Source: a virus
IMG/VR virus record: IMGVR_UViG_3300028820_000059
Coordinates: 1-30,004 of that record
Length of the DNA stretch: 30,004 bases
Strand: one strand, 5' to 3'
Shown here: in pieces, positions 2,005-16,322 of the stretch
How the letters are laid out: the number at the start of each line of letters is the position of its first letter
How positions within the stretch are numbered: position 1 is the stretch's first letter
The notes under the pieces: generated by a model
Databases searched by the model: none
The model's input: the letters and a program-made list of their open reading frames with translations, nothing else
What the model was told of the DNA's origin: nothing
Position numbers and translations under genes: made by a program

Positions 2005-2589
2005 ATGGCACGCCGTGATGCTCAGAAACAACGAATTTATGATGCAGAGATTGAATTTGTTCGAAGAGCCAAAGTATTAAGCAAATTGATGATAAACGAA
2101 TCTCCTGTCTTTGATCATGTTGTGCAATTAGTTGAACATATTCGAAAAATTGCACTTGAAAAATTCAGAGTCAAACTCTACAACCGCCCTATCAGAGTTT
2201 TCGCAAACTCTGTATATTCAGAAAGATACAGAAAAAATCTGGATATTACTATTACTGATGCGGCAGGATTGTTTATTTATGATAATTATAGTAATACTCC
2301 TGACTCTGAAACAGTACTAGTATTCCTTGAGGAAGAACCATACCTCAGGAAGGTAATCATTCACGAAATGGCACACTGGATCAATATGTGCATGTACCCC
2401 TCAGGACAGGAGTTTTATGAGATTCAACCGCATGGCGAGGAGTTTGCGGCCATCTATCTCTGGGTCATTAACGAGATACTGGGGAAAGATGATGCATTGA
2501 TTATGTATTTTTGCATGAAAGAAAAGAAAGTGTCAATTGACGAGAGGCTGCTCAGGATCAATGGGTTGAGCGGGTTCCTCTATTACTGA
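2005..2589 (+). CDS. SprT-like zinc metalloprotease, paralogue 1
   Basis: This 194-aa protein carries HEMAHW at residues 120-125 and HGEEF at 143-147. The order HExxH then HGxxF is the zinc-site signature of the SprT/SPRTN family of metalloproteases, where two His of HExxH and the later His bind zinc and Glu is catalytic. The C-terminal zinc ribbon of bacterial SprT is absent. The N-terminal part is helical (VEHIRKIALEKFRVKLYNRP). I start at the ATG at 2005, because GAGGAG (1991-1996) is 8 nt upstream. A GTG at 1996 is in frame but lies inside the ribosome site. SprT-domain proteins in other organisms cleave proteins crosslinked to DNA. In a phage early region the target could be DNA-bound host protein, which is inference. 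A close paralogue follows. Confidence 0.82.
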   Translation: MARRDAQKQRIYDAEIEFVRRAKVLSKLMINESPVFDHVVQLVEHIRKIALEKFRVKLYNRPIRVFANSVYSERYRKNLDITITDAAGLFIYDNYSNTPDSETVLVFLEEEPYLRKVIIHEMAHWINMCMYPSGQEFYEIQPHGEEFAAIYLWVINEILGKDDALIMYFCMKEKKVSIDERLLRINGLSGFLYY

Positions 2590-2592
2590 GAT

Positions 2593-2606
2593 GTTCCACG
2601 TGGAAC
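2593..2606. promoter_or_regulatory. parS-like palindrome, site a
   Basis: Perfect GTTCCACGTGGAAC, flanked by T and G. It lies right after the stop codon of the first SprT-like gene and ends 37 bp before the -35 box of P6. Confidence 0.75.
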
Positions 2607-2615
2607 GTCGGAGAA

Positions 2616-2672
2616 GATTAAGGAATTTTAATCAAAAAAACACTTGACAAGCTCGGGATTTTGTTGTATAAT
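2616..2672 (+). promoter_or_regulatory. Early promoter P6 with upstream palindrome
   Basis: GATTAAGGAATTTTAATC (2616-2633), 10 bp of mostly A, TTGACA (2644-2649), 17-bp spacer, perfect TATAAT (2667-2672). It has the only consensus -10 box among the fourteen early promoters. Confidence 0.93.
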
Positions 2673-2699
2673 GAAATTAAAAGAAAGGAGACGGCGGCA

Positions 2700-3302
2700 A
2701 TGGCTTATAATGTGCAGGATGTTCAGCAGAAAAGGGTATATGAAGCTGAAGCATTATTTCTTGATAAATTGCGTAAGCCCCCCTTGTCGCGGAAAATTTT
2801 GAAATTTGATCAAAATTCAGATTATTCCTGTCAGATTGAGCGGGGCAAGCAGTTTGTTGATCAAATCAGAACCATTGCCCTTGAGCGGTTTAGAGTCAAA
2901 CTTTACAACCGTCCAATTCATCTTCAAACCAATTTTGTGTGTTTTAATAATACAAAAATTGACCTTACTGTTGGATCAGCCTCAGGAGTTTTTCTTTACA
3001 ATGATTTGTTGACTGAAACATCAATCGGCTATTATTCCGATGACCCATTTGTAAAACTGACACTAATTCATGAAATGTCGCACTGGATCAATATGTGCAT
3101 GTATCCGTCGGGGCAGGAATATTCCAGAGTGCCCTTTCATGGTAAGCAGTTTACAGCGATTTATTTGTGGACTATTAATGAAATGTTGGGGAAGGATGTC
3201 GCTGTTATTATGTTCAATTCTATGAAAGAAAGGGAGGTGTCAATTGACGAGGGGCTTCTCAGAATCAACGGTATGGGGTGGATTCTCCCGGAAGAAGATT
3301 AA
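2700..3302 (+). CDS. SprT-like zinc metalloprotease, paralogue 2
   Basis: This 200-aa protein is the paralogue of the product of 2005-2589. It has HEMSHW at residues 124-129 and HGKQF at 147-151, so the zinc ligands and catalytic Glu are all kept. The stretch HWINMCMYPSGQE is identical between the two. The N-terminal halves differ much more than the catalytic halves, which suggests different targets or partners for a common protease core. The start is the ATG at 2700, 9 nt after AAAGGAG (2684-2690). An upstream in-frame TTG at 2661 lies inside the promoter and is rejected. The stop codon lies in the palindrome of the next promoter. No secretion signal is present, so it should act in the cytoplasm. 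Confidence 0.82.
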   Translation: MAYNVQDVQQKRVYEAEALFLDKLRKPPLSRKILKFDQNSDYSCQIERGKQFVDQIRTIALERFRVKLYNRPIHLQTNFVCFNNTKIDLTVGSASGVFLYNDLLTETSIGYYSDDPFVKLTLIHEMSHWINMCMYPSGQEYSRVPFHGKQFTAIYLWTINEMLGKDVAVIMFNSMKEREVSIDEGLLRINGMGWILPEED

Positions 3303-3352
3303 GGAATTTTAATCAAAAAGGTGTTGACAAAGAATCGGAGATAGGATATCAT
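3297..3352 (+). promoter_or_regulatory. Early promoter P7 with upstream palindrome
   Basis: GATTAAGGAATTTTAATC (3297-3314), 9 bp, TTGACA (3324-3329), 17-bp spacer, TATCAT (3347-3352). The palindrome holds the stop codon of the second SprT-like gene and is identical to that of P6. The leader to the next ATG is unusually long, about 47 nt. Confidence 0.88.
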
Positions 3353-3406
3353 AAAATTGTGAAGGGAAAAAATCCCGGACAAAACAAAGACAAAGGAGAT
3401 AAGACA

Positions 3407-3919
3407 ATGATTAAGAGCAAGAAGAACAAGAAGGCCAACAACAAGAAGGTCAACAACAACGATATCATCGCTGCTGCTGCTCTCGCCACTGAGACAGTGG
3501 AGCAGGTGGTTGAGCAGGTGGTTGAGCCTGTGGAGGCTGTGGAGCCTGTGGAGCCTGTGGAGGCTGAGGTGACCGTTGAGGTTCCTGAGACTCCTGAGGT
3601 TCCTGAGATTCCCACTCCCAAGTCTCTGAAGAAGGCGAAGGGAACGGGAAAGAGGGGCCGCCCGGCGATTGACCGGGAACTGATGCGGGAGACCATCATC
3701 AACACTCTTCGTGACCTCTATCCTGATGAGGTGTTTTTCAGCCGGAAGCAGGTGGCGAATTTGGGTTTGCCTCCTTCCTATATCCTTTATTTTGTGAAGG
3801 TTGCGAAGACCCCGATTCGTGGGTTGTATGTCCTGCCCCCGTCTTGGCGCAAGGACTGGGCAGGTTACAGCGAAGCGCTCAAGAGCGCACTGAAGACCAT
3901 CCTGACCGGAAGCAACTGA
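3407..3919 (+). CDS. AT-hook protein with Val/Glu/Pro repeat
   Basis: This 170-aa protein has three clear parts. Residues 1-15 are very basic (KSKKNKKANNKK). Residues 31-70 are an acidic low-complexity repeat (VEQVVEQVVEPVEAVEPVEP and then PETPEVPEIP). Residues 75-90 are basic and contain GKRGRPA (81-87), a canonical AT-hook core that binds the minor groove of AT-rich DNA. Residues 91-165 form a small globular domain; its YPDEVFFSRKQVANLGLPPSYILYF stretch resembles a helix-turn-helix. The start is the ATG at 3407, 7 nt after AAAGGAG (3393-3399). An in-frame upstream start at 3278 would run through the promoter. It is likely a DNA-binding or nucleoid-type protein, possibly acting on the AT-rich promoter palindromes here; that target is inference. 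Confidence 0.8.
   Translation: MIKSKKNKKANNKKVNNNDIIAAAALATETVEQVVEQVVEPVEAVEPVEPVEAEVTVEVPETPEVPEIPTPKSLKKAKGTGKRGRPAIDRELMRETIINTLRDLYPDEVFFSRKQVANLGLPPSYILYFVKVAKTPIRGLYVLPPSWRKDWAGYSEALKSALKTILTGSN
3497..3615 (+). repeat. In-gene tandem repeats (GTGGAGCCT-type)
   Basis: Imperfect tandem 6-, 9- and 15-nt units (GTGGAGCCT, GTTGAGCAGGTG, GTTCCTGAG) encode the Val-Glu-Pro repeat of the AT-hook protein. The repeats keep frame, so copy-number change would lengthen or shorten the linker without breaking the gene. Confidence 0.75.
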
Positions 3920-3937
3920 TCACCTCCCACTGCTACG

Positions 3938-3970
3938 CCCCGGCTGGAACAACCTCCAGCCGGGGTTTTC
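3938..3970 (+). terminator. Rho-independent terminator
   Basis: The perfect 11-bp stem CCCCGGCTGGA (3938-3948) / TCCAGCCGGGG (3955-3965) has a 6-nt loop and is followed by TTTTCTT. It is very stable and ends the AT-hook gene transcript. Confidence 0.93.
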
Positions 3971-3974
3971 TTAT

Positions 3975-3988
3975 GTTCCACGTGGAAC
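3975..3988. promoter_or_regulatory. parS-like palindrome, site b
   Basis: GTTCCACGTGGAAC, extended to an 18-bp perfect palindrome at 3973-3990 (AT on the left, AT on the right). It sits immediately after the terminator and 66 bp from site c. Confidence 0.78.
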
Positions 3989-3995
3989 ATTAACA

Positions 3996-4019
3996 TGGCC
4001 GTGTGAATTCACATGGCCA
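3996..4019. promoter_or_regulatory. 24-bp near-perfect palindrome (operator candidate)
   Basis: A TGTGAATTCACA core (4002-4013) is bracketed by TGGCC and GGCCA, with one mismatched pair in 24 bp. It lies between two parS-like sites, upstream of promoter P8. No known operator is recognised. The TGTGA/TCACA halves are spaced 2 bp, not the 6 bp that CRP needs. Confidence 0.6.
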
Positions 4020-4040
4020 GTTATAATCACAAGATATAAG

Positions 4041-4054
4041 GTTCCACGTGGAAC
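4041..4054. promoter_or_regulatory. parS-like palindrome, site c
   Basis: Perfect GTTCCACGTGGAAC, ending 37 bp before the -35 box of P8. This is the same distance as site a to P6. Confidence 0.78.
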
Positions 4055-4063
4055 ATCAGAAAA

Positions 4064-4120
4064 GATTAAGAAAATTTAATCAAAAAAACTATTGACAAGC
4101 CTCGGACTTTTTGATACACT
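4064..4120 (+). promoter_or_regulatory. Early promoter P8 with upstream palindrome
   Basis: GATTAAGAAAATTTAATC (4064-4081), 10 bp, TTGACA (4092-4097), 17-bp spacer, TACACT (4115-4120). It is followed by the conserved start region GAGAATGAAAGGAGACA. Confidence 0.92.
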
Positions 4121-4142
4121 GAGAATGAAAGGAGACATCGTT

Positions 4143-4511
4143 ATGAAGACCAATGAGATGCCCCAAGTTGTTGGGTATATTCCTGATAACGAGTTTGAGT
4201 TTCAAATTTACAAACTCGTTACGAAAGACGGATTTGTCCGGCGCTCGTATCCGAACAAGCCGCCCAAAGGGGTTGATGAGCGGACTTGGAAGATCGGACG
4301 TTATGTATGGCGTCACGTTGTCTTTTTCGTTTCTCCGGTACGCCAGCATCAATGCATGCCAGTTCTGGATATTTTCTACCTTCCGGCAGATATTAGTTGG
4401 AATGATAAAGAGAAGATTGCCGAACTGGATAAGATTGTCGACAAAATCGTTGATTGCATCCCCAAAACCCAGTGGCATTCTGTTCTGCGTTGGGCAAGGG
4501 TTCTGTTTTAA
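4143..4511 (+). CDS. Hypothetical early protein
   Basis: This 122-aa soluble protein was not recognised. It has a mixed strand/helix look, with an aromatic-basic middle (RTWKIGRYVWRHVVFFV, about residues 46-62) and a charged helix near the end (KEKIAELDKIVDKIVD, about residues 89-104). No cysteine motif or membrane span stands out. The chosen ATG lies 8 nt after AAAGGAG (4128-4134). An in-frame ATG at 4125 overlaps the ribosome site, and an in-frame TTG is the -35 box itself. It is the first gene of a two-gene unit with 4534-4815. Confidence 0.75.
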   Translation: MKTNEMPQVVGYIPDNEFEFQIYKLVTKDGFVRRSYPNKPPKGVDERTWKIGRYVWRHVVFFVSPVRQHQCMPVLDIFYLPADISWNDKEKIAELDKIVDKIVDCIPKTQWHSVLRWARVLF

Positions 4512-4533
4512 TATATAATGAAAGGAAAAGAAA

Positions 4534-4815
4534 ATGGCCAGAACACACAGGAAACTTAGTGTTACTCCGATGACTCGCGAAGAATGGGAGCGGTACTGTG
4601 GTCATAAGGGTGGTACTTATGAACGGTACCTTGCTTCTCTCACTGGGGATCGGCGCAATGGTCGCTGGTACCCGTCCAGCGAGTTCCGGCGCAGCCTCAA
4701 TGCCGAATACCGGGCCAAGATCAAACAGGCACTCAAAGACTGGAAAGCCCGGCATCTGCTTGAAGACATTGAGCTTCCGCCCTTCAAGCGGAATGCGTGG
4801 TGGATCTGGTTCTAG
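4534..4815 (+). CDS. Small basic hypothetical protein
   Basis: This 93-aa protein is rich in Arg, Lys, Trp and Tyr and was not recognised. It has TREEWERYCGHKGGTYERYL near residues 14-32, a basic helix about residues 51-69 (RRSLNAEYRAKIKQALKDWK) and a Trp-rich C-terminus (NAWWIWF). The overall basic charge would suit nucleic acid or anionic surface binding, but that is only charge. It lies 22 nt after the previous gene with its own AAAGGA site (4521-4526) and no convincing promoter, so it is probably co-transcribed from P8. Its TAG stop abuts the palindrome of the next promoter. Confidence 0.75.
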   Translation: MARTHRKLSVTPMTREEWERYCGHKGGTYERYLASLTGDRRNGRWYPSSEFRRSLNAEYRAKIKQALKDWKARHLLEDIELPPFKRNAWWIWF

Positions 4816-4870
4816 ATTAAAAAAATTTAATCAAAAAGTCCTTGACAGGTTCGGGACTTTTTGGTACACT
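4815..4870 (+). promoter_or_regulatory. Early promoter P9 with upstream palindrome
   Basis: GATTAAAAAAATTTAATC (4815-4832), 9 bp, TTGACA (4842-4847), 17-bp spacer, TACACT (4865-4870). The leader holds two AAAGGA-type sites (4878-4883 and 4907-4913), as if the leader had partly duplicated. Confidence 0.9.
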
Positions 4871-4919
4871 GAAAATGAAAGGACGAGAAAAGTCCTCAAG
4901 ACACAGAAAGGAGACAAAC

Positions 4920-5414
4920 ATGAATAAGGTGCGAATTGGAAACAACAACTACTACAGGCTGGACATCTCCAGTTTCAGGTTGATTGACTGTGGAATGGGA
5001 AATCTGTTCTACGTCAACGAGTTTGGGTTCAGCCCCAACACGCCAAAGGAATTGCGGCAGGATCTGGAACTCTATTTCAGGGTTCTCGGCACTTTCGTTC
5101 TTCGTGTTGATAATACTTGGGGATATGATCTCTGGGTGGTTTCTGATAATATCTCCAAGTATTACAAGGATGTTGATGAAGACCCGCCTGCCGAAGTCGT
5201 CAACTGGTTTGGCGTCTGGACGGGCGACAGGTGGGTTCTGGTGGAGATTGCTAACCCGAATCGTCCCTCCAGTTGCACGAACCCGCGCGTCCAGCATCGC
5301 TATGATCTTCCTGCGCCTGCCTTTGTTCGCAAGGATCGGTTCCCCACTGCCCTGTTCGAAGAGCAGGATGGTGAGCTGGTTCTCATTAGCAGCAGAATTG
5401 CAGTGGCCAGCTAA
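4920..5414 (+). CDS. LLDCGDGYFYVN family member A (short, divergent)
   Basis: This 164-aa protein is the most diverged member of a six-gene paralogous family in this window (the others start at 6387, 7111, 11300, 11972 and 13189). It keeps the N-terminal block (FRLIDCGMGNLFYVNEF, about residues 19-35), the LYFRVLGTFV block, the NWFGVWTGDRWVLVEIANP block and the P-R-x-x-x-x-x-x-LPAP segment. It lacks the last 45 or so residues of its relatives, ending where they have FYVVQAF, and a terminator follows at once. The ATG at 4920 follows AAAGGAG (4907-4913) by 6 nt. An in-frame ATG at 4875 would start inside the probable transcription start region. The family's function is unknown. DNA here is GC-richer than in the other members. 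Confidence 0.78.
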   Translation: MNKVRIGNNNYYRLDISSFRLIDCGMGNLFYVNEFGFSPNTPKELRQDLELYFRVLGTFVLRVDNTWGYDLWVVSDNISKYYKDVDEDPPAEVVNWFGVWTGDRWVLVEIANPNRPSSCTNPRVQHRYDLPAPAFVRKDRFPTALFEEQDGELVLISSRIAVAS

Positions 5415-5422
5415 TCTCAGTT

Positions 5423-5462
5423 AGTCCGGGGCGCTTTTCAGAGGTGCCCCGGACTTTTTTTT
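5423..5462 (+). terminator. Rho-independent terminator
   Basis: AGTCCGGGGC (5423-5432) pairs perfectly with GCCCCGGACT (5446-5455). A run of eight T, whose first base belongs to the stem, ends at 5462. It is a strong terminator for family member A. Confidence 0.93.
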
Positions 5463-5485
5463 ATTTCAGGAGAGAAAAAAGTGTA

Positions 5486-5543
5486 GATTAAGAAAATTTA
5501 ATGTGGGAAGGGGCTTGACAGGCCGACTTGATTATGATAAGAT
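5486..5543 (+). promoter_or_regulatory. Early promoter P10 with upstream palindrome
   Basis: GATTAAGAAAATTTAATG (5486-5503), 11 bp, TTGACA (5515-5520), 17-bp spacer, TAAGAT (5538-5543). The -10 box is the weakest of the set. Confidence 0.8.
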
Positions 5544-5566
5544 AGAAAATGAAAGGAGACAACACA

Positions 5567-6085
5567 ATGATCAACAATGAAACCCTCCAACAAGAAACCA
5601 TCACTGCCGCTGCCGAACAGCAGCAGGCTCAACCCGTAGATCCTCAAACTGAAGAATTGATCCGGGCGGCAAGAATCGCCAAGGGTGAGATTCAGCCCGA
5701 GAAGGAACACGAAAATCTCGGCTATCGGTTCATCGCCGCGAAGAAAGACGTCTCGTCCTCCGGCAGAGTCCGGCAACTTTGGTACCGTATGCGGCGCTCT
5801 CCGGGCACCGATACGTGGGAGTACTATGCCGAAGAGCGCCTGCCGCGCGGGAATTTCCGGGCGAGTGAGCGGCAAGCAACTGTCTACGGAACTCTCTACA
5901 TCGGCGATCTGGTTGCGACTCATGATCACGCCAAGCCGATTGACCGGATTTGCCTTGTTTACTTCAACATTGAAGAAAATAAGGCAAAGCTGCATGACTG
6001 CGAATTTAACATTGTCCGGGGCAACATGCTTCAGATTTCTTTGCCGGATGGCAGCAAGATTCAATTGCCGAACCCCCGGAAGTAA
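5567..6085 (+). CDS. Hypothetical early protein
   Basis: This 172-aa protein was not recognised. Residues 1-30 are a low-complexity, Gln/Glu/Ala-rich and probably disordered tail (TAAAEQQQAQPVDPQTEE). The rest looks like a compact beta-rich domain with many Arg and Tyr (RQLWYRMRRSPGTDTWEYY, about residues 69-87) and a C-terminal strand-turn-strand stretch (NMLQISLPDGSKIQLPNP). I choose the ATG at 5567, 7 nt after AAAGGAG (5553-5559); the ATG at 5549 precedes the ribosome site. It is probably co-transcribed with the next two genes, with a strong hairpin in between. The DNA is GC-rich compared with the genes downstream. Confidence 0.77.
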   Translation: MINNETLQQETITAAAEQQQAQPVDPQTEELIRAARIAKGEIQPEKEHENLGYRFIAAKKDVSSSGRVRQLWYRMRRSPGTDTWEYYAEERLPRGNFRASERQATVYGTLYIGDLVATHDHAKPIDRICLVYFNIEENKAKLHDCEFNIVRGNMLQISLPDGSKIQLPNPRK

Positions 6086-6097
6086 GAGTCTTCCAGA

Positions 6098-6142
6098 GTC
6101 CCCTGTTCCACGTGGAACATAAAAGCCCGTGGAACAGGGGAC
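6098..6142 (+). other. Strong 15-bp intercistronic hairpin with alternative parS hairpin
   Basis: The 15-nt arm at 6098-6112 (GTCCCCTGTTCCACG) pairs perfectly with 6128-6142, leaving a 15-nt loop. No T-run follows; the next bases are AAAGAAAAGG, so a simple terminator is unlikely. The 5' arm shares bases with the parS-like palindrome at 6105-6118, so in RNA the two stems cannot form together. The hairpin lies 21 nt before the ATG at 6163. It may serve as a pause, processing or stability element. Confidence 0.7.
6105..6118. promoter_or_regulatory. parS-like palindrome, site d
   Basis: Perfect GTTCCACGTGGAAC within the 16-bp palindrome TGTTCCACGTGGAACA. It is the only intergenic copy not followed by a TTGACA promoter. 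It overlaps the large hairpin. Confidence 0.75.
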
Positions 6143-6162
6143 AAAGAAAAGGAGAAGAGACA

Positions 6163-6384
6163 ATGAACACGCGATACATCAAAGTCAGGAACAGGCACGG
6201 ATTTGTCACAATCGCTTCAACCAGAAGCTCTCTGGATATTTTTCCAGAAGTCCCAAAAAATTGGGAAGTTGCAAACTATGATGTCGATGGTGAACCGTGG
6301 GCGTGGTACCGGGAAGCCTCAGAAGAGGAAGTCGTTGACTGGGAAAATTCCGGCATTCCGTTCGGAAATTGGGTGGAGGGATAA
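6163..6384 (+). CDS. Small hypothetical protein
   Basis: This 73-aa acidic protein was not recognised. It has a basic start (NTRYIKVRNRHGFVT), a DVDGEPWAWYREASEEEVVDW stretch at about residues 41-61 and a FGNWVEG end. The size and single-domain look suit a small inhibitor or adaptor, but no family can be named. The ATG at 6163 follows AAAGGAG (6148-6154) by 8 nt. An in-frame ATG at 6112 lies in the hairpin region and has no ribosome site. It has no promoter of its own and ends 2 nt before the next start, so it is tightly coupled to family member B. Confidence 0.72.
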   Translation: MNTRYIKVRNRHGFVTIASTRSSLDIFPEVPKNWEVANYDVDGEPWAWYREASEEEVVDWENSGIPFGNWVEG

Positions 6385-6386
6385 AC

Positions 6387-7013
6387 ATGAAAACCGAAAA
6401 ATTCAAAGCCATTAACGGTAAAGTCTACCATCTGATTTCAGAGTGTTTCACTTTGCTGGATTGTGGCAACGGGTATTTTTATGTGAATGGAATTAATATT
6501 GCTCGCCGTCATAACGTTCAAAACGTTGACCCCTACTACGAATTTCTTGGAGCATTGGTAAAAAAGGAATCCTACGGCTATCGGGCTGTTACCAGCAACA
6601 TGTGCCCCGAGTCCGACTACAAAGAAAATCTGGAAGGGATGCTGTTTGTTCATGTTCCCGCCAGCATGACCGAATGGCTCGGGTACTGGACTGGCGAGGA
6701 CTGGATTCTGGTTCAGATGCCTCATCCCGATAATATTGCCCCGGGAGAAGCTCCAGAAATTACTCGTACCAAAGAGCTTCCTCCTCCGACAAATGGAGTG
6801 TCTTTCGTTCTGTTTGCGGAAGGCCTGAATAAATTTTATGTAACTCAGGCATTTAATGACAGGGGCACTCCACTGATTATGACACTTCAAGACGTTCCAC
6901 CGGAATTTCCGTTTCCTGTCATGCCCCGGCATCTTGAGGTGCCGGAATCCAAGGAAAAAGGGTTTACTTACGCATTTGGAAACTATGACTGGTTCATGGT
7001 GATCAATCCATAG
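6387..7013 (+). CDS. LLDCGDGYFYVN family member B
   Basis: This 208-aa full-length family member shows the conserved blocks in order: FTLLDCGNGYFYVN (about residues 21-34), DPYYEFLGALVKKES (48-62), HVPASMTEWLGYWTGEDWIL (about 89-108), ELPPP, VSFVLFAEG, FYVTQAF, FPFPVMPR, and a final YAFGNYDWFMVI. The repeating aromatic-strand pattern suggests an all-beta fold, perhaps two related halves. There is no signal peptide and no catalytic motif I can recognise. Its closest relative is the product of 7111-7731. The start codon has GGAGG at 6375-6379 and sits 2 nt after the upstream gene, indicating translational coupling. The function is unknown. Confidence 0.8.
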   Translation: MKTEKFKAINGKVYHLISECFTLLDCGNGYFYVNGINIARRHNVQNVDPYYEFLGALVKKESYGYRAVTSNMCPESDYKENLEGMLFVHVPASMTEWLGYWTGEDWILVQMPHPDNIAPGEAPEITRTKELPPPTNGVSFVLFAEGLNKFYVTQAFNDRGTPLIMTLQDVPPEFPFPVMPRHLEVPESKEKGFTYAFGNYDWFMVINP

Positions 7014-7021
7014 TTTCCAGT

Positions 7022-7035
7022 GTTCCACGTGGAAC
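7022..7035. promoter_or_regulatory. parS-like palindrome, site e
   Basis: Perfect GTTCCACGTGGAAC, in the 16-bp form TGTTCCACGTGGAACA (7021-7036). It overlaps the first bases of the P11 upstream palindrome and ends 26 bp before the -35 box. Confidence 0.78.
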
Positions 7036-7068
7036 ATTAAGAAAGTTTAATAAAAAAACTCTTGACAA
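7022..7068 (+). repeat. 47-bp direct repeat, copy 1
   Basis: It is identical to 7732-7778 except for one base (C at 7025, T at 7735). It spans the parS-like site, the AT palindrome, the A-tract and the -35 box. The two copies are 710 bp apart and enclose exactly one gene. Confidence 0.9.
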
Positions 7069-7090
7069 CTCCTCAGGAATTTGATATCCT
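7035..7090 (+). promoter_or_regulatory. Early promoter P11 with upstream palindrome
   Basis: CATTAAGAAAGTTTAATA (7035-7052), 9 bp, TTGACA (7062-7067), 17-bp spacer, TATCCT (7085-7090). A parS-like site is fused to its upstream edge. Confidence 0.92.
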
Positions 7091-7110
7091 GAGAATGAAA
7101 GGAAATAGTG

Positions 7111-7731
7111 ATGTTCTTTACAAAATTCAAAACGGTTGATGGCAAAACCTATTACCTTAATCAAAATTGTTTCAGTCTTCTGGATTGTGGCGACGGGTAT
7201 TTTTACATTAATGAAATTAAAATCCGTCACCGCAATATCCTGAATATTACTCCATATTATGAATTTTTGGGGACAATTGTCAAACAGGAATCCTGTGGCT
7301 ATCAAGCTGTAACTAACAACATGAATCCTCCTCCCGAATTCAGAGAGAATGCATATGGAATGGTTTTTGTTCATGTACCAAATAATATGAAAGAATGGCT
7401 TGGATACTGGACTGGCAAAGACTGGATCCTTGTAGAGCTTTTGACGCCTGAAGATCAGGAACCCGGCATTCCGCCAAAAATTATTCGTACTACTGAACTT
7501 CCTGCTCTTCCGTTTCCAAGTCCGGTTTCTTTTGCCCTTTTTGCTGAACTTGAAAAAAAGTTTTATGTTGTCCAAGCCTTTGACAAAAAAGGCTTTCCTG
7601 TAATCATGTCTCTGCAAGATATTTCTCATGAGTTTCCTTTTCCGGTTCTTCCGAGAAATGTTCTACCAGTAGAGAGTGGCGGGACTACTTACGCATTTGA
7701 TTATAGCACGTGGTTCATGATTGTGAATTAG
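7111..7731 (+). CDS. LLDCGDGYFYVN family member C
   Basis: This 206-aa protein is the closest paralogue of member B. Shared blocks include FSLLDCGDGYFYIN, TPYYEFLGTIVKQES, HVPNNMKEWLGYWTGKDW, TTELPALP, VSFALFAE, FYVVQAFDKKG, HEFPFPVLPR and a final YAFDYSTWFMIV. It is the member that best represents the family consensus. I start at the ATG at 7111 rather than the adjacent GTG at 7108; AAAGGAAA (7098-7105) is the ribosome site. The gene lies alone between two copies of a 47-bp repeat, each holding a promoter front end, so it looks like a self-contained cassette. The function is unknown; many diverged copies suggest adaptation to variable host targets. Confidence 0.8.
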   Translation: MFFTKFKTVDGKTYYLNQNCFSLLDCGDGYFYINEIKIRHRNILNITPYYEFLGTIVKQESCGYQAVTNNMNPPPEFRENAYGMVFVHVPNNMKEWLGYWTGKDWILVELLTPEDQEPGIPPKIIRTTELPALPFPSPVSFALFAELEKKFYVVQAFDKKGFPVIMSLQDISHEFPFPVLPRNVLPVESGGTTYAFDYSTWFMIVN

Positions 7732-7745
7732 GTTTCACGTGGAAC
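7732..7745. promoter_or_regulatory. parS-like palindrome, site f (one mismatch)
   Basis: GTTTCACGTGGAAC differs from the other sites at one base. It begins 1 bp after the stop codon of member C and ends 26 bp before the -35 box of P12, exactly like site e. Confidence 0.72.
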
Positions 7746-7778
7746 ATTAAGAAAGTTTAATAAAAAAACTCTTGACAA
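7732..7778 (+). repeat. 47-bp direct repeat, copy 2
   Basis: Second copy of the repeat at 7022-7068, with one base different. Recombination between the copies would remove family member C cleanly and leave one hybrid promoter. Confidence 0.9.
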
Positions 7779-7801
7779 GCGGCTTGTGGATGTAGTATAG
7801 T
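7745..7801 (+). promoter_or_regulatory. Early promoter P12 with upstream palindrome
   Basis: CATTAAGAAAGTTTAATA (7745-7762), 9 bp, TTGACA (7772-7777), 18-bp spacer, TATAGT (7796-7801). It differs from P11 only after the -35 box. Confidence 0.88.
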
Positions 7802-7822
7802 AGAAGTGTGAGGACACAAGCA

Positions 7823-8746
7823 ATGACCAAACGCGTTCGTGATGATGTTCATTCACCCAAGAACCTGATTCCTGAAAATTATGAGTTTGTGGGTGTCAGG
7901 CTGTTCCATGATGAAATTCCTGATGATCGCAACTTTATCATGGAACACATGAAGCGTACGGGTGGAAAATTTTCCACCCATGAGCACGGCGGGTTTTGTG
8001 ATGTTTGTGGAAACCCGAACGTTCTGAACTATGCGGTATTTTACCACAAACCAACAAATACCTACATTAAAACCGGGCTTGAATGTGCTGATACCATTTC
8101 CACGTTCGCATCGGCTGCATTGCATAATGCAATTCAGGAAGTGAATCGCAAAAAATATTTGGAAACTCGTCAAAAAAAAGCAGAAGCCCGTCGAAAGTAT
8201 ATTAAAGACGAGTTCTTGATTTCTCTGAAAGGTACGGTTTTGGAACCTTATACGTCTCTTCTTGAGAACCCTCCTTCAAATGAAACTTATGAACAGGCAA
8301 CGTTGCGCAATATTCTGGCTAACGGGGCACGGTATGGCAGCCTGACAAGTCGTCAATGGGCATATGCGGAGAAGATTGTCAAATCTATTGAAGCTTCTAC
8401 TCTTCAGACTGTTCAAGAGGAGTCAAAAACTCCTTCAGCAGAAATTGTTGAAGGAAAATATGAAATCATTGGCAAGATTATTTCAATCAAATACAAAAAT
8501 ATTGAAGAAACTCCCTACCCGGGGTATCGTATGCTGGTAGAAGATGCTGAGGGGCGCAAATATTATGGATCTGTTCCTGCAATTCTTCTTGAATCGGTTG
8601 AAGCCGTGGAATCTTTGATTGATCGGGAAGTAGTTCTTTCTGTTACTGTTACCCGGTCTCCTAAAGATCCTTGCTTTGGATTTTTCAAGCGCCCCCGGCT
8701 GGTTAAAATGTCACATGAGGTTGACAAGAGCACGGAAGAACATTAA
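7823..8746 (+). CDS. Zinc-knuckle hypothetical protein
   Basis: This 307-aa protein has an N-terminal cluster H53, H55, C59, C62 and C88 (HEHGGFCDVCGNP, then GLEC). The pattern C-x2-C, about 25 residues, G-x-x-C is typical of small zinc-binding folds in phage and plasmid proteins that read a metabolite or nucleic acid. A basic helix follows at about residues 107-130 (NRKKYLETRQKKAEARRKY). The next part has a TSRQWAYAEKIV stretch, which in other proteins ends a helical domain. The C-terminal third (about 205-290) looks like a small beta-barrel (KYEIIGKIISIKYKN, YRMLVEDAEGRKYYG). The start is the ATG at 7823, 8 nt after AGGA. The whole architecture suggests nucleic-acid binding, but no named family is certain. 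Confidence 0.77.
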   Translation: MTKRVRDDVHSPKNLIPENYEFVGVRLFHDEIPDDRNFIMEHMKRTGGKFSTHEHGGFCDVCGNPNVLNYAVFYHKPTNTYIKTGLECADTISTFASAALHNAIQEVNRKKYLETRQKKAEARRKYIKDEFLISLKGTVLEPYTSLLENPPSNETYEQATLRNILANGARYGSLTSRQWAYAEKIVKSIEASTLQTVQEESKTPSAEIVEGKYEIIGKIISIKYKNIEETPYPGYRMLVEDAEGRKYYGSVPAILLESVEAVESLIDREVVLSVTVTRSPKDPCFGFFKRPRLVKMSHEVDKSTEEH

Positions 8747-8796
8747 GAAAGTTTAATCAAAAAACTCTTGACAAGCTGGCTGGAGTTTGGTATCCT
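8741..8796 (+). promoter_or_regulatory. Early promoter P13 with upstream palindrome
   Basis: CATTAAGAAAGTTTAATC (8741-8758) includes the stop codon of the zinc-knuckle gene. Then come 9 bp, TTGACA (8768-8773), a 17-bp spacer and TATCCT (8791-8796). At the place where P11 and P12 have a parS-like site, only a half-site GAAC (8738-8741) remains, within coding sequence. It should drive the six genes up to 10512. Confidence 0.92.
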
Positions 8797-8817
8797 GAGA
8801 ATGAAAGGAGACAGACA

Positions 8818-9150
8818 ATGACCAACGAGATGATCAACGCTGAAGCCAAGGCCAAGATCCAAGAGCTTCTGGCCGGGAAACCGGGAAAGAAACTGACAGT
8901 AGTCTACTACTACGAAGAAGGCAATTTTTTTACTCCTACTTATGGCGAGCTTCGGGAATTCACCATATGGCTAGGAGAAGACGGGGAACTTCATTGGAAA
9001 GACAAGATGCTGGATGAGTCTTTTCCTGACATTATCCAGAAAAAGTATGCAGGAAAGTACAGCTTTGTCTCCTACAACAAGCTGTCCTATCTGATGCGGA
9101 ATGAAGTATACAGCCGAGTGCTGGAATTTCTGACTGCTGCCGCCGCCTGA
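8818..9150 (+). CDS. Hypothetical early protein
   Basis: This 110-aa protein was not recognised. An N-terminal helix (MINAEAKAKIQELLAG) is followed by beta-like segments (KKLTVVYYYEEG, YGELREFTIWLGEDGELHW) and a C-terminal helix (SYLMRNEVYSRVLEFLTAAAA). No motif points to a reaction. It has a good AAAGGAG site (8804-8810), 7 nt before the ATG. It is the first gene of the longest early operon in the window, with 9169, 9414, 9820, 10050 and 10252 behind it and no terminator between them. Confidence 0.76.
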   Translation: MTNEMINAEAKAKIQELLAGKPGKKLTVVYYYEEGNFFTPTYGELREFTIWLGEDGELHWKDKMLDESFPDIIQKKYAGKYSFVSYNKLSYLMRNEVYSRVLEFLTAAAA

Positions 9151-9168
9151 CAAGGAGAGAGTGAAAAA

Positions 9169-9372
9169 ATGAATTGTGAAAAATGTGGCCGTAAAATCAC
9201 CGATGAGGAGCGCGAAAAAGACTGGCCGATTCCTGATCGTGAGGAAGGACGGCTCGTTTGTCCATCCTGTTACGGAAATGCGGCCTTTTGTGTTCGGTGT
9301 GGAGAATTGCTTGGAGCTTTCGTAAATTCTCCGCTTTGTCCGGGATGTGATCTTGAAGACTTTTGGATTTAA
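9169..9372 (+). CDS. Double zinc-ribbon small protein
   Basis: This 67-aa protein has four CxxC pairs: CEKC (residues 3-6), CPSC, CVRC and CPGC. The spacing fits two treble-clef or zinc-ribbon units, each with two pairs. The first unit resembles the LIM-like knuckles of many small phage proteins. Such domains bind protein or nucleic acid rather than catalyse. The ATG follows AAGGAGAG (9152-9159) with 9 nt between. It is 18 nt downstream of the previous gene and part of the same transcript. The target is unknown. The loss of any one pair would break the fold, and none is lost here. Confidence 0.82.
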   Translation: MNCEKCGRKITDEEREKDWPIPDREEGRLVCPSCYGNAAFCVRCGELLGAFVNSPLCPGCDLEDFWI

Positions 9373-9385
9373 TTACGTAACGTAA
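9373..9385. promoter_or_regulatory. TTACGTAACGTAA palindrome
   Basis: A 6-bp inverted repeat around one base, directly after a stop codon, followed by a run of ten A (9389-9398). It could be a protein site; no family is recognised, and its stem is too weak for a terminator. Confidence 0.35.
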
Positions 9386-9413
9386 ATTAAAAAAAAAACA
9401 GAAAGGAAATAAT

Positions 9414-9797
9414 ATGCGACATGTAAATAATGGAATCTACGTTCCCCCGCCGGATCATCCAGAAGCCCGGCTTTGGGATCAAAACCTGATCAATGCTGCC
9501 GATAAGGTTCGGCAATTGATCAAACAGAATAATTCCATTTCTCTTTCATTCCCATATCTTTACGCTGTTCCGAAAACCAACTACACTTCGGCTTATAATG
9601 AAATGCACATTCTGAATTTTTCCTTAACTTCCGACAATTGGATTACTTTCAGAGATAGTGTGTTGATGTTCGGGAGTGTGAAGGAATCTGTTCTGGCCGC
9701 ATGCGAGCCACTGAAGCCCAAAATGACTGTTTCGAAAAAATTTCTTCATCTTCCATATGAAGAAATTTTCGAAAAGGGATATGAGGCGCTTCAATAA
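9414..9797 (+). CDS. Hypothetical early protein
   Basis: This 127-aa protein was not recognised. It starts MRHVNNGIYVPPPDHPEARLW and has a helix about residues 24-40 (LINAADKVRQLIKQN), a strand-rich middle (ISLSFPYLYAVPKT, MHILNFSLTSDNWITF) and a mixed C-terminal part (EEIFEKGYEAL). There are no cysteine clusters or membrane segments. The ribosome site GAAAGGAAA (9401-9409) is well placed. It lies in the operon driven by P13, between the double zinc-ribbon gene and the tandem HTH genes. Confidence 0.75.
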   Translation: MRHVNNGIYVPPPDHPEARLWDQNLINAADKVRQLIKQNNSISLSFPYLYAVPKTNYTSAYNEMHILNFSLTSDNWITFRDSVLMFGSVKESVLAACEPLKPKMTVSKKFLHLPYEEIFEKGYEALQ

Positions 9798-9819
9798 ATA
9801 ATCATGAAAGGAGAAAAAA

Positions 9820-10035
9820 ATGAGCGACAATAATCAAAAGGATTTGATCTATATCTGGGATCTCGCGGTAGAAAAAAACATTCCAGAATCTTTGATTAAT
9901 GAACTAATTGATCTAAAAATTCTTACCGCTACTCCAAACAAGCGGTGGATTTATCGCTCATCAGTAAAAACGTTGGATCGTTTTCTGCAAGCAATGGAAA
10001 AATACAGTGCTGCCCAAAAGAAAATAAAAAAGTAA
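9820..10035 (+). CDS. Excisionase-like HTH protein, tandem copy 1
   Basis: This 71-aa protein is built as one small helix-turn-helix with a wing: DLIYIWDLAVEKNIPESLIN (helix-turn-helix), ELIDLKILTATP (second helix and turn), then NKRWIYRSSVKTLDRFLQAM. The order 'A-x-x-x-x-IP-x-x-x-I-x-x-LI, then RWIxRSSVxxLDRFL' matches the layout of MerR/excisionase-type DNA-binding domains (helix-turn-helix, a short wing with RW, and a last helix ending near FL). This is pattern-level recognition. The next gene is a direct duplicate. The ATG has AAAGGAG (9807-9813) 6 nt upstream. A role as a small regulator or architectural DNA-bending protein fits. Confidence 0.78.
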   Translation: MSDNNQKDLIYIWDLAVEKNIPESLINELIDLKILTATPNKRWIYRSSVKTLDRFLQAMEKYSAAQKKIKK

Positions 10036-10049
10036 AAAGGAGAAAAAAA

Positions 10050-10247
10050 ATGAGCAACGAGAATCTGATCTATATCTGGGATCTTGCAGTGGAAAAGAAT
10101 GTCCCTTGTTCGGTAATTGAAGATCTGATTGATAACAAACTCCTCTATGCCACCCCTGATAAGCGATGGATTCATCGCTCATCAGTGGAAGCTCTGGACA
10201 GATTTTTGCAGGCTGTGAAAGAATTCACAACCGCTCAGGAAAAGTGA
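10050..10247 (+). CDS. Excisionase-like HTH protein, tandem copy 2
   Basis: This 65-aa protein is a tandem duplicate of the preceding gene, with IYIWDLAVEKNVP, RWIHRSSVEALDRFLQAV and the same overall length. The N-terminal HTH helix is nearly unchanged, while the recognition area (PCSVIEDLIDNKLLYATPDK) has drifted, so the copies may bind different sites or form heterodimers. The true start is the ATG at 10050, 8 nt after AAAGGAG (10035-10041), which starts right at the end of the first copy. It is co-transcribed with its twin and the next gene. Confidence 0.8.
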   Translation: MSNENLIYIWDLAVEKNVPCSVIEDLIDNKLLYATPDKRWIHRSSVEALDRFLQAVKEFTTAQEK

Positions 10248-10251
10248 AAAA

Positions 10252-10512
10252 ATGGAAAATTTGCAAGAAATTCGGAACCCGTTAATTGAAAAGATTTTCC
10301 GGGTTGGCCCTGTTACAACGATGGATTCTGGATGTGGATTTTCTTCTGCTTATCAAATTAATGATGAGCATTACATCGTTGTTGATGACGGAACTTACAG
10401 ACATTTTTTCTTCTTACCATCAAAAAATAGTGCTATTCAAAACAAGTTTTACTGGTGTTGGAAAGTAACAACTTTACAGCCGCGTTCCACGCGAAACATT
10501 AAGAAACTTTAA
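10252..10512 (+). CDS. Small hypothetical protein
   Basis: This 86-aa protein was not recognised. It is rich in Phe, Tyr and Val and probably beta-stranded (YQINDEHYIVVDDGTYRHFF, about residues 34-53) with a basic tail (PRSTRNIKKL). The ATG is only 4 nt after the upstream stop, and the ribosome site is weak (AGGAAAA at 10237-10243), so translational coupling to the HTH genes is likely. Its last codons carry a degenerate parS-like site and the palindrome of the next promoter, so the C-terminal residues may be dictated by those DNA elements. Confidence 0.68.
   Translation: MENLQEIRNPLIEKIFRVGPVTTMDSGCGFSSAYQINDEHYIVVDDGTYRHFFFLPSKNSAIQNKFYWCWKVTTLQPRSTRNIKKL
10484..10497. promoter_or_regulatory. 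Degenerate parS-like site h (two mismatches)
   Basis: GTTCCACGCGAAAC differs from the perfect site at two bases and lies within the 3' end of a gene. It ends 26 bp before the -35 box of P14, the same distance as sites e and f, which supports it as a true relic or weak site. Confidence 0.55.
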
Positions 10513-10552
10513 TCAAAAACCTGTTGACAAACCCTCAGAAATTTGATATCCT
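10497..10552 (+). promoter_or_regulatory. Early promoter P14 with upstream palindrome
   Basis: CATTAAGAAACTTTAATC (10497-10514) includes the previous stop codon. Then come 9 bp, TTGACA (10524-10529), a 17-bp spacer and TATCCT (10547-10552). It should drive the genes up to the terminator at 13123. Confidence 0.9.
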
Positions 10553-10577
10553 GAAAATGAAGAAAGGAGACAATGAA

Positions 10578-10925
10578 ATGGCACACACACATTATCCGAT
10601 GATTATCGAATGGCAAGGGCCGACGCATCGCCGGGATATCTGCGAATGTGGATATTTTCGGCATGTTGTCCTGCTGCACGGTGTTAAAGTTTTCGAAGAC
10701 TGGTTGCCGGGATATCCGCTTGATCCTGATCAGAAGAAAAAGTCTCGGCATGTGCATAAGCCTGCTGTTGACGTGATGCCATATGATTCAATCCACAAGC
10801 AAATTTGCAAGTGTGGAGCGGTTCGGTATCTTTCCAATAATGACGGGTTATATCCCAACGGTTCCACGTGGAACGAGAATGCAATCTATGAAGAGATGCA
10901 GGAATTGTATCTCTTGAAGAAATAA
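10578..10925 (+). CDS. His/Cys-repeat small protein
   Basis: This 115-aa protein holds two related units: an N-terminal one with HTHYP ... HRRDICECGYFRHV and a second with RHVHKP ... HKQICKCGAVRYL. Each has histidines followed by C-x-C-G, a pattern that could hold one zinc per unit. The units look like an internal duplication. I start at the ATG at 10578, 8 nt after AAAGGAG (10563-10569); the ATG at 10573 is out of frame and a TTG start would be the -35 box. A perfect parS-like site lies inside the gene (10861-10874) and encodes STWNE in part. The function is unknown. Confidence 0.76.
   Translation: MAHTHYPMIIEWQGPTHRRDICECGYFRHVVLLHGVKVFEDWLPGYPLDPDQKKKSRHVHKPAVDVMPYDSIHKQICKCGAVRYLSNNDGLYPNGSTWNENAIYEEMQELYLLKK
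10861..10874. promoter_or_regulatory. parS-like palindrome, site i (inside a gene)
   Basis: Perfect GTTCCACGTGGAAC within the coding sequence of the His/Cys-repeat gene, with no promoter close downstream. A site in coding DNA argues that the motif's role does not depend on an intergenic place. Confidence 0.72.
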
Positions 10926-10946
10926 TTTCAGAAAGGAAAAAATATT

Positions 10947-11297
10947 ATGATGACGCCAACACCATCTCCGTATTCATGGGCGGGTGGAATCATTGAAGCT
11001 TTTGGGCCAGATGTCCAAGAAAAAGACATTGCCGCCGCTTTGTGGTACTATACCAGAGAAGATTTGCAAAAAATTCTCAGGCTGGCTGAAAAAGACATTG
11101 CAGCCGCAACTGATGAACTTCTGGAAGCCCGGCGAGCGGCTGATCAGGAATTTGGCTCTGGCTGGAAAGTCAGAGTGACTTATTACAAAGACAGAAAAAA
11201 AATCAGACCACTTGAAAAACGCGGGTTGATATGCGAAAATGATGGTGTGCTTCTGTATTGGTTCATACCAGCACGAAATCACAGAAAGGAGAATTAG
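10947..11297 (+). CDS. Hypothetical early protein
   Basis: This 116-aa protein was not recognised. After a Pro-rich start (MMTPTPSPYSWAGG) come helices at about residues 24-66, including the DLQKILRLAEKDIAAATDEL stretch with coiled-coil character, then a short strand-rich end (KVRVTYYKDRKKIRPL, GVLLYWFIP). Two ATGs (10947 and 10950) follow each other; the ribosome site GAAAGGAAA (10931-10939) serves either. It lies 21 nt after the previous gene, ends 2 nt before family member D, and belongs to the P14 operon. Confidence 0.73.
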   Translation: MMTPTPSPYSWAGGIIEAFGPDVQEKDIAAALWYYTREDLQKILRLAEKDIAAATDELLEARRAADQEFGSGWKVRVTYYKDRKKIRPLEKRGLICENDGVLLYWFIPARNHRKEN

Positions 11298-11299
11298 TT

Positions 11300-11956
11300 A
11301 TGAATCTCAAACGAATTCAGACTCTGGGTGTTCTCAGCCCTGTGCATCTGATTGACATGGATTGTCTCCGATTGATTGACTGTGGAGACAACACCCATTT
11401 CTATGTGAGTGATTTTGTTGCAAAGGAAAAAAATTCATATCCGGTAAATTTTGCACCGTACTACGAATTGGTCGGCACGGTTATTTCCAAGGAAACGGAA
11501 TCAGATTACATTGATTACCGTGTTGTAACCCGAAGTATCTTCTTGTTTTCCAAACCACTGGATGCAGCTTTGGGTATGCCATCTGTACATATTCCTGCTG
11601 CATGGCGGGAGTGGATGGCATATTTTACCGGAAAGGACTGGATTCTTGTTGAATTTCCTCGTCCGCCGAAGGATGATGATGATTCGGATTATTGGACGAA
11701 TCCGCGAATTCTTCGGAAAACTGGAAAAATTCCTTTTCCTTCATCCAATATTACTTCCATTCATCTTGCCGAAGATGAGAAAGGAACCCTTTTCATTGTG
11801 CAGGCATATGATTACAACGGGCTTCCTGTTCCGGTGAATGAACTGGATGATTATTATTGGTATCCGGTAAAAATTCTTCCCCGGAAGAAACTGGAAGAAG
11901 TCAAAAAGGGCAGGACTTATGCATACAGTGGCCCTTGCTGGTATGTGGTTATTTGA
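11300..11956 (+). CDS. LLDCGDGYFYVN family member D
   Basis: This 218-aa protein is the longest family member. Conserved blocks: CLRLIDCGDNTHFYVSDFV (about residues 19-37), FAPYYELVGTVISKE, HIPAAWREWMAYFTGKDWIL (about 96-115), IPFPSSNITSIHLAE, TLFIVQAYDYNG, YPVKILPRK and a final YAYSGPCWYVVI. It has a small insertion (PPKDDDDSDYWTN) before the NPRILR segment shared with members A and E. The ATG has AAAGGAG (11285-11291) 8 nt upstream and sits 2 nt after the previous gene. It is directly followed by member E, so D and E are a tandem pair in one operon. Confidence 0.8.
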   Translation: MNLKRIQTLGVLSPVHLIDMDCLRLIDCGDNTHFYVSDFVAKEKNSYPVNFAPYYELVGTVISKETESDYIDYRVVTRSIFLFSKPLDAALGMPSVHIPAAWREWMAYFTGKDWILVEFPRPPKDDDDSDYWTNPRILRKTGKIPFPSSNITSIHLAEDEKGTLFIVQAYDYNGLPVPVNELDDYYWYPVKILPRKKLEEVKKGRTYAYSGPCWYVVI

Positions 11957-11971
11957 GAAAGGAGAAAAAAA

Positions 11972-12619
11972 ATGAACCTCAAGCGAGTTTTCATCATTGA
12001 TTATGGTTCCTGCTATCTGGATTTTGACAAGATAGAGCTTCTGGATTGTGGAGATGGATTCTGCTTTGTCAACAGGATCATTGAACCTGAAGACCCTGCA
12101 AATTACCGGGAGAATATGTCCCCCTATTACCTGCTTTTGGGATGCATTCTACAAAAAAATCCGAATGATCACCACGATTACGAAGCTGTTACCATTACTC
12201 CATTTCGAAATGCAGAGCTTCGGGAAACTGTAGCCGAGCGCGATATGGTTACAGTATTTGTTCCTGAAGAAATGACGGAATGGATCGGCTACTGGGTTGA
12301 TACTTTGAAGAAGTGGATTTTTGTGGAATTTCTTCACAATAATTCACGAAATCCACGGATCAAGCACGTGATTGATCTTCCGAAACCGCCTGAAATGATT
12401 CGGTGGATGCATTTTGCTGAAGCCGATGATGGTACCCTGTATGTGGTTCAGGCATTTCATGGTGGAATTCCGTGGTTTACTGAAACCACGGAAGAAGAGG
12501 AAGAATCAGAAAAGAAATTCTTCCCGTTCAGGTTTCTCCCCCGGAAGCGGCTTGATGAACCGGACTATGGAACCACCTATGTTTTTGATAATCTGCGACT
12601 TTATCGGGTGAATATGTGA
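11972..12619 (+). CDS. LLDCGDGYFYVN family member E
   Basis: This 215-aa family member has IELLDCGDGFCFVN (about residues 21-34), MSPYYLLLGCILQKN, FVPEEMTEWIGYWVDTLKKW, NSRNPRIKHVIDLPKPP (shared in style with A and D), MHFAEADDGTLYVVQAFHGG, a TETTEEEEESEKK insertion, FPFRFLPRK and a final YVFDNLRLYRV. The EWIGYW block is interrupted by DTLKK where others have TGKDW, a variation also seen in member F (WDEKHKLW). The ATG follows AAAGGAG (11958-11964) by 7 nt. It is upstream of the M15 peptidase gene in the same transcript. Confidence 0.8.
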   Translation: MNLKRVFIIDYGSCYLDFDKIELLDCGDGFCFVNRIIEPEDPANYRENMSPYYLLLGCILQKNPNDHHDYEAVTITPFRNAELRETVAERDMVTVFVPEEMTEWIGYWVDTLKKWIFVEFLHNNSRNPRIKHVIDLPKPPEMIRWMHFAEADDGTLYVVQAFHGGIPWFTETTEEEEESEKKFFPFRFLPRKRLDEPDYGTTYVFDNLRLYRVNM

Positions 12620-12632
12620 GAAGGAGGTAAAA

Positions 12633-13076: not shown

Positions 13077-13122
13077 GGTTGCCTGCTGCTGCTGTGTGCT
13101 GTCTCCTTTCTGTGCACACTAA

Positions 13123-13160
13123 AGGGTGTGTTGGGTTAGCTCAACACACCCTGTTTTTTT
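13123..13160 (+). terminator. Rho-independent terminator
   Basis: AGGGTGTGTTG (13123-13133) pairs perfectly with CAACACACCCT (13142-13152) around an 8-nt loop; G and seven T follow. It ends the P14 operon after the peptidase gene. Confidence 0.93.
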
Positions 13161-13188
13161 AGTAAATTGAAAACAGGAGAGTGTTCCC

Positions 13189-13809: not shown

Positions 13810-13810
13810 T

Positions 13811-16313: not shown

Positions 16314-16316
16314 ATA
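16309..16316 (+). promoter_or_regulatory. Late-promoter-like AATAAATA
   Basis: AATAAATA matches seven of eight bases of the T4 late promoter TATAAATA, 6 nt before the ATG at 16323. It overlaps the previous stop codon, so it may be chance. Confidence 0.3.
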
Positions 16317-16322
16317 GGATAT

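Follow-up and report, generated by a model that had tools for sequence, protein, structure and literature searches.

The region considered here lies at 3937–4142 of the window (the whole 30,004-bp IMG/VR record that was analysed), between two genes on the forward strand. The upstream gene (3407–3919) follows an early sigma-70 promoter at 3324–3352 (TTGACA-17-TATCAT, forward strand) and encodes a protein of 170 aa with a basic and acidic N-terminus, containing an AT-hook-like KRGRP motif; its match to the winged-helix family AbiEi_4 (PF13338, E 0.0031) is weak and under the cut-off. The gene is followed by a strong intrinsic terminator on the same strand (3937–3976), with a 12-bp stem at 3937–3966 and a T-rich tail (−26.6 kcal/mol, z −5.65). 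A first parS site, b, is an exact GTTCCACGTGGAAC at 3975–3988, where the perfect palindrome reaches 18 bp (3973–3990). Next comes a putative operator array (3990–4022), with unit 1, ACATGGCCGTGT, at 3993–4004 and unit 2, ACATGGCCAGTT, at 4011–4022, and it contains a 24-bp near-perfect palindrome at 3996–4019, TGGCCGTGTGAATTCACATGGCCA, with one mismatched pair. A second exact GTTCCACGTGGAAC, site c, occupies 4041–4054 with a −35 box 51 nt downstream, and an AT-rich imperfect palindrome resembling an UP-element lies at about 4064–4081. The series ends with P8, an early sigma-70 promoter on the forward strand at 4092–4120 (TTGACA at 4092–4097, 17 nt, TACACT at 4115–4120), which serves a forward-strand gene of 122 aa (4143–4511) without a family match.

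A sequence-only reading had described 3938–4142 as a dense regulatory island, and all the parts that it named were found in place, including the two parS-like sites 66 bp apart. The AT palindrome and the mere presence of parS are not peculiar to it: parS occurs outside the island as well, and of 14 early promoters, hand-picked from the promoter list with matches within genes left out, 12 have ATTAA-5/6 nt-TTTAAT ahead of their −35 box. The AT palindrome is therefore a common promoter module, presumably best read as an UP-element, and does not make the island special. A scan for parS together with the AT palindrome returned two unrelated contigs, one of which proved to be a terminator hairpin.

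The window is a fragment of a T4-superfamily myovirus. Its genes at 13.8–22.7 kb match T4-type baseplate families (PHROG), with kin of gp5, gp6 and gp25, and the gp6-like protein is, among the matches listed, about 29–36% identical to T4-superfamily counterparts in Pelagibacter, Methylophilales, Sinorhizobium, Synechococcus and Caulobacter phages; the PHROG and Pfam scans covered a subset of the frames. The left 11 kb consists of short genes, mostly without a family, and numerous strong sigma-70 promoters. Viral scans with the baseplate proteins gave one close relative contig, G001, which spans window 10540–29888 only and does not include the island region. A megablast of window 2500–6500 against GenBank phages gave zero matches, and the baseplate gp6 was not found in bacterial genomes. 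Positions 1–45 look like an Illumina Nextera adapter with an i5 index, which makes the contig's left end an artefact of assembly. The early region also holds two tandem SprT-like protease paralogues (1996–2589 and 2661–3302), 49% identical and distant from known families, for which a scan gave one weak relative, and six diverged paralogues of another kind (4920–5414, 6369–7013, 7108–7731, 11258–11956, 11972–12619 and 13189–13809), of which the members at 6369 and 7108 had no convincing match in the PHROGs/Pfam scan.

The parS sites are far in excess of chance. The window contains six exact copies of GTTCCACGTGGAAC and eight sites within two mismatches, a count that averaged 0.08 and never exceeded 2 in 300 dinucleotide shuffles; no other perfect 14-nt palindrome has more than one copy in the window. 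The eight sites are palindromes of the chromosomal parS type, (T)GTTYCACGTGRAAC(A), of 14–16 bp (six exact, one with one mismatch and one with two), and are clustered, as chromosomal parS sites are, in the early region at 2593–10874 (2.6–10.9 kb); no further site within two mismatches was found elsewhere in the 30 kb. Besides sites b and c, exact copies lie at 2593–2606 (3 nt past a stop codon, with a −35 box at 2644, 51 nt downstream), 6105–6118 (intergenic, with no promoter found beside it), 7022–7035 (−35 box at 7062, 40 nt downstream) and 10861–10874 (within a reading frame). The site at 7732–7745 (GTTTCACGTGGAAC) has one mismatch and a −35 box at 7772, and the parS-like site at 10484–10497 has two mismatches and a −35 box at 10524, each 40 nt downstream.

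Five of the eight sites thus start exactly 40 or 51 nt ahead of a −35 box, the two distances differing by about one helical turn, and random placement reached five such sites in none of 200,000 trials. The exceptions are 3975 (after the terminator), 6105 (intergenic and promoterless) and 10861 (in a reading frame). The spacings, however, are not independent events, because promoter modules are copied within the window (repeat family D1), and the regularity may in part result from duplication of these modules. The geometry is also not fixed: at the left end of G001 (forward strand), the promoter that matches window 10524 is without TTGACA, and a 13-nt parS-like sequence, TGTTCCACGGGAACA, lies roughly at the expected place of the −35 box. 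The copy at 10861 is unchanged in G001, where just 4% of the 14-mers in the aligned stretch are kept exactly. Spreading of ParB is a known property of parS sites. Looping between sites b and c, which had been proposed for the island, is not needed, since the modules at 2593, 7022 and 7732 show that there is usually one parS per promoter.

The term parS-like turned out to be an understatement, as several bacteria have this sequence as their native parS. The chromosomal sites of Pseudomonas and Myxococcus have exactly the letters of GTTCCACGTGGAAC, although the parS of the phage's own host may differ. In a ChIP-seq study (PMC5098823), P. aeruginosa ParB occupied TGTTCCACGTGGAACA/C in living cells and showed no significant binding to proposed sites that deviate at two positions; by this rule, the site at 10484 may be inactive. 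Other reports give the M. xanthus consensus as TGTTCCACGTGGAACG, with binding in gel shifts (PMC3899335), the same parS core in P. putida (PMC7022226), Bdellovibrio (PMC10547168) and Xanthomonas (PMC3937727), and repression by P. aeruginosa ParB of promoters adjoining the intergenic parS3 and parS4 (PMC5521831).

Host-type parS sites are found in other phages as well. In a collection of 50,697 phage records, the 16-mer TGTTCCACGTGGAACA turns up in 58, of which 17 are Pseudomonas by name, and TGTTTCACGTGAAACA in 286, mostly from Gram-positive hosts (Listeria 87, Microbacterium 49, Arthrobacter 29, Gordonia 25 and Bacillus 11, with Pseudomonas outside the ten commonest names), so that the type of parS goes with the host group. 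Three control palindromes, with the letters of TGTTCCACGTGGAACA scrambled, were found in 0, 0 and 1 of the 50,697 records; the excess is judged against these three only, and the phage collections contain near-duplicates. Whole-record scans of ten complete Pseudomonas phages gave 1 to 6 parS each, often within about 7 kb, and 0 in each of seven comparison records (T4, FelixO1, phiKZ, HTVC008M, phiN3, Cr30 and Melnitz). The phages with parS are a minority, the Pseudomonas phage phiKZ and the T4-like T4, HTVC008M, phiN3, Cr30 and Melnitz being without it, and the proportion of 12 in 19 is no frequency, as the 12 parS-bearing records were chosen from BLAST hits. When 14 records were searched with the ParB_N profile PF02195, Stenotrophomonas phage BUCTxx99 gave the single match, and the ten complete Pseudomonas phages that carry parS gave none. 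Orphan host-type parS is therefore a recurrent phage trait, if far from universal.

A scan for paired parS gave 13 contigs, all with a layout unlike that of the island. A scan for parS followed by TTGACA gave 108 stretches, with parS sites counted among the matches listed (80 listed, 60 rows). By eye, a like spacing is seen at two sites in unrelated Pseudomonas phages (39 nt in SYP and 37 nt in Amme-3). The bajarodino viruses PQ006099 and PQ006149 (~5.9 kb) carry 5 and 6 TGTTTCACGTGAAACA sites (10 and 12 strand-counted), and a single exact parS is present in records of Gokushovirus and other Microviridae (KT264806, MG945234 and others). In the Pseudomonas phages SYP and phiPsa315 (L128/L147, L133) and in Vibrio phage phi 3 (KP280063), parS is close to the genome ends or inside terminal repeats, and perhaps is part of the first DNA to enter the cell.

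Alternatively, the phage may encode its own regulator (ParB-like, DndB-like, or the AT-hook/winged-helix protein of gene 3407–3919), with the palindromes as its operators; it would shut early promoters later, and the match to parS would be convergence. Such a regulator would account for the five sites at fixed positions before promoters, and the weak AbiEi_4 match of gene 3407–3919 is in its favour. It would also fit the five of five annotated Pseudomonas phages that were opened (OQ183418, MZ605293, MG018930, PP496413 and MZ826350), in which no more than 25 bp separate a parS from the start or the stop of a gene of the DndB family; a ParB-CTPase fold has been reported for the DndB protein group. 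The window and G001, however, have no match to ParB_N or the DndB family, the sites at 6105 and 10861 are promoterless, and neither the exact identity with bacterial parS nor the split of the two parS types by host group is expected under convergence. Both contigs are fragments, and a phage ParB or regulator could lie beyond the 30-kb fragment. On balance, we consider a phage-made regulator rather unlikely.

The 24-bp palindrome is, as had been noted, unique in the window (one copy, with 0 expected). It consists of two tandem ACATGGCCRTGT-like operator units at 18-bp spacing, the second of which is degenerate. A 16-letter scan of viral contigs gave four stretches, and two near-identical ones (L153 and L156) match window 3990–4018 at 29 of 29 nt. 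They belong to G003, another T4-superfamily phage, which has a gp5-like match to window 15.1–16.0 kb and whose frames we take to be gp23-, gp22-, gp21-, gp20- and gp19-like; the 29-mer is the best DNA match of the G003 contig to the window (E 8e-8). In G003 the putative operator lies directly past a stop codon and 52 nt before TTGACA, with an AT-rich palindrome in between. No parS within one mismatch was found in the G003 contig, and parS and the operator are therefore not a fixed pair.

Several other candidates for the palindrome were discarded. A reading as a CRP site was rejected because 2 bp, rather than the 6 of the CRP consensus, separate the half-sites. Palindrome variants with other loops (L160–L163) appear to be plain hairpins, and a BLAST search of the palindrome region against GenBank phages gave four records at chance level.

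The bacterial counterpart of the operator gives a clue to its nature. A 20-letter pattern has four occurrences in a collection of 84,980 bacterial and archaeal genomes, namely in Caballeronia, Paraburkholderia, Trinickia and an Acidobacteria MAG, and by BLAST the Trinickia array is also matched by two plasmid records. All six loci have ACATGGCCRTGT-like units at 18-bp spacing, more degenerate in both plasmid records, and the array adjoins a regulator-like gene followed by a nucleotidyltransferase gene. A homologue of the regulator is present at all six loci and one of the nucleotidyltransferase at five, the sixth being cut by the contig end. The nucleotidyltransferase matches PF12281 (NTP_transf_8) above the cut-off in the three proteins tested and is annotated as 'GSU2403 family'; the helix-turn-helix matches of the regulator are under the cut-off in Trinickia and Paraburkholderia, and the Acidobacteria protein is without a match. 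Only one of 300 Burkholderiales genomes carries the array, and this is the centre genome itself; the array is therefore rare and tied to its operon.

From its gene order, the bacterial layout appears to be of the AbiE-like toxin-antitoxin operon type. In AbiE (type IV) systems, the antitoxin is reported to autoregulate by binding repeated palindromes (PMC7319586, PMC3985639). Homologues of the regulator and the nucleotidyltransferase were found in none of the window, G001 and G003, and the phage has the operator alone. Recurrence both upstream of a promoter in G003 and as an array before the bacterial operon lends support to the proposal that the palindrome is another operator within the island.

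In the three operator-bearing Burkholderiaceae genomes, parS is of the GTTTCACGTGAAAC or mixed type, with 2 sites in each genome of 6–10 Mb, and no parS was found in the operator-bearing Acidobacteria MAG. The phage's type of parS and its operator occur together in none of these four genomes.

The palindromes have also to be considered as RNA. Mobile promoter-stem-loop cassettes (PeSLs) are reported in T4-like phages (PMC4503421), and the elements here may be the stem-loop halves of such cassettes, acting as RNA hairpins or recombination targets rather than as protein sites. In favour of this, the RNA fold of the 24-bp element is a good one (−20.2 kcal/mol, z −6.45), with the pairing preserved in G003 via G-U pairs, and modules of palindrome and early promoter (family D1) are repeated in the window. 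However, since the terminator occupies 3937–3976, the interval 3977–4120 is probably untranscribed, and the palindromes in it would act as DNA. Moreover, the hairpin of parS is weak as RNA (−7.9 kcal/mol) and its letters are those of parS, and the bacterial arrays are direct repeats at 18-bp spacing, which is an operator pattern rather than that of a single hairpin. We regard the reading as PeSL halves that work as RNA hairpins or recombination targets as highly improbable.

In G003 (L153 2881–3050), the operator and promoter are followed by a short frame and a hairpin only, and then by a convergent gp23-like gene; the unit perhaps encodes a small RNA. The same arrangement would suit a decoy function, in which the copies of parS titrate host ParB and the operator titrates the toxin-antitoxin regulator, so as to disturb the host, and the placement near promoters is incidental. 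The density of the sites (8 in 30 kb, compared with 2 in each of the three 6–10 Mb Burkholderiaceae genomes) is consistent with decoys, as is the use by SGI1 of parS copies against its helper plasmid, reported in PMC10954446. But decoys require no set position, whereas five of the eight sites keep a fixed distance from the −35 box, and it is unlikely that a handful of sites could titrate an abundant protein ahead of replication. A decoy function is very unlikely in our estimate.

The interpretation that we favour, with somewhat more confidence than doubt, is that the island is a control region of the early gene at 4143–4511, with predicted binding sites for host ParB and for a regulator of the toxin-antitoxin type. 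The combination of parS and palindrome suggests a docking of host proteins on early phage DNA. What was read directly is the sequences themselves, with their placement, excess over chance and recurrence in other phages, and the operon context of the operator; the binding, the host and the effect on P8 are predicted.

Under this interpretation, the terminator would end the upstream transcription unit, and the eight parS copies of the early region would load host chromosomal ParB, which would clamp the DNA and spread. The 24-bp palindrome would be a two-unit operator for the regulator that is encoded beside the GSU2403/NTP_transf_8 nucleotidyltransferase, and P8 would be an ordinary sigma-70 early promoter. 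The main effect would be that early DNA is held in the host centromere complex. Early transcription may then be damped, delayed or timed in cells with free ParB (and free regulator, where there is one), much as Spo0J and Spo0A hold back phi29 during sporulation. The centre of parS is about 33–45 bp before the −35 box, by the UP-element, and ParB bound there could block or contact the alpha subunits of RNA polymerase; the regulator site would provide a second input on the early gene.

To our knowledge, host centromere sites on virulent phages have been described for phi29 only. A partial survey of the literature on parS and phages, mostly without subscription papers, found no report of host-type parS occurring naturally in lytic phages of Pseudomonas or in T4-like phages; what it did find concerns SGI1, the phi29 precedent, ParB folds encoded by phages and tagging experiments with engineered parS.

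A bolder, joint proposal, which is possible but doubtful as a whole, is that the island is a host-sensing module in which gene 4143–4511 is held or released by ParB together with the regulator of a toxin-antitoxin-type nucleotidyltransferase system, and also that carriage of the host's own type of parS without ParB has evolved independently and is general among virulent phages (those of Pseudomonas, Listeria and actinobacteria, and even microviruses). If the island is such a module, the phage would read both the state of chromosome segregation in its host and the state of a defence-like operon. Whether host ParB coats incoming phage DNA, and helps or hinders the phage, is a question that can be tested in laboratory strains. 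The second palindrome would tie the early control of the phage to a toxin-antitoxin-type operon, and it offers a DNA probe for the regulator of that operon.

Several known systems resemble parts of this arrangement. AbiE type IV systems (PMC7319586, PMC3985639) are like the bacterial operons described here in having regulator and nucleotidyltransferase genes behind a multi-repeat operator; in contrast, these operons are of the GSU2403/NTP_transf_8 type, and the phage has the operator alone. SGI1, which hijacks the ParABS of IncC plasmids (PMC10954446), is likewise a parasite that has the parS of another replicon without the proteins, but it is integrative and gains partition, whereas partition is of no obvious use to a lytic phage.

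The parS1–4 of P. aeruginosa ParABS (PMC5098823, PMC5521831) are the identical 14- to 16-bp site, in several copies over some kb, with intergenic copies next to ParB-repressed promoters. The present sites differ in being on phage DNA and upstream of early sigma-70 promoters, and neither ParA nor ParB was seen in the fragment (with a profile search for ParB). In alphaproteobacterial phages, CtrA boxes place sites for a host cell-cycle protein at the promoters of unrelated phages ('lytic deferment', PMC9437464); the protein is a different one, and CtrA binding was measured, whereas ParB binding is predicted here from sequence.

The closest parallel is phi29, which is entrapped in the spore via Spo0A boxes and Spo0J (ParB) (Meijer et al. 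2005, as described in PMC9437464). The present case differs from it in that the phage belongs to the T4 superfamily, has eight parS sites and, in place of Spo0A boxes, a putative operator of the toxin-antitoxin type, and is known from sequence alone. It is like phi29 in that a virulent phage would exploit host ParB and a host regulator at its early promoters, by binding that is here predicted.
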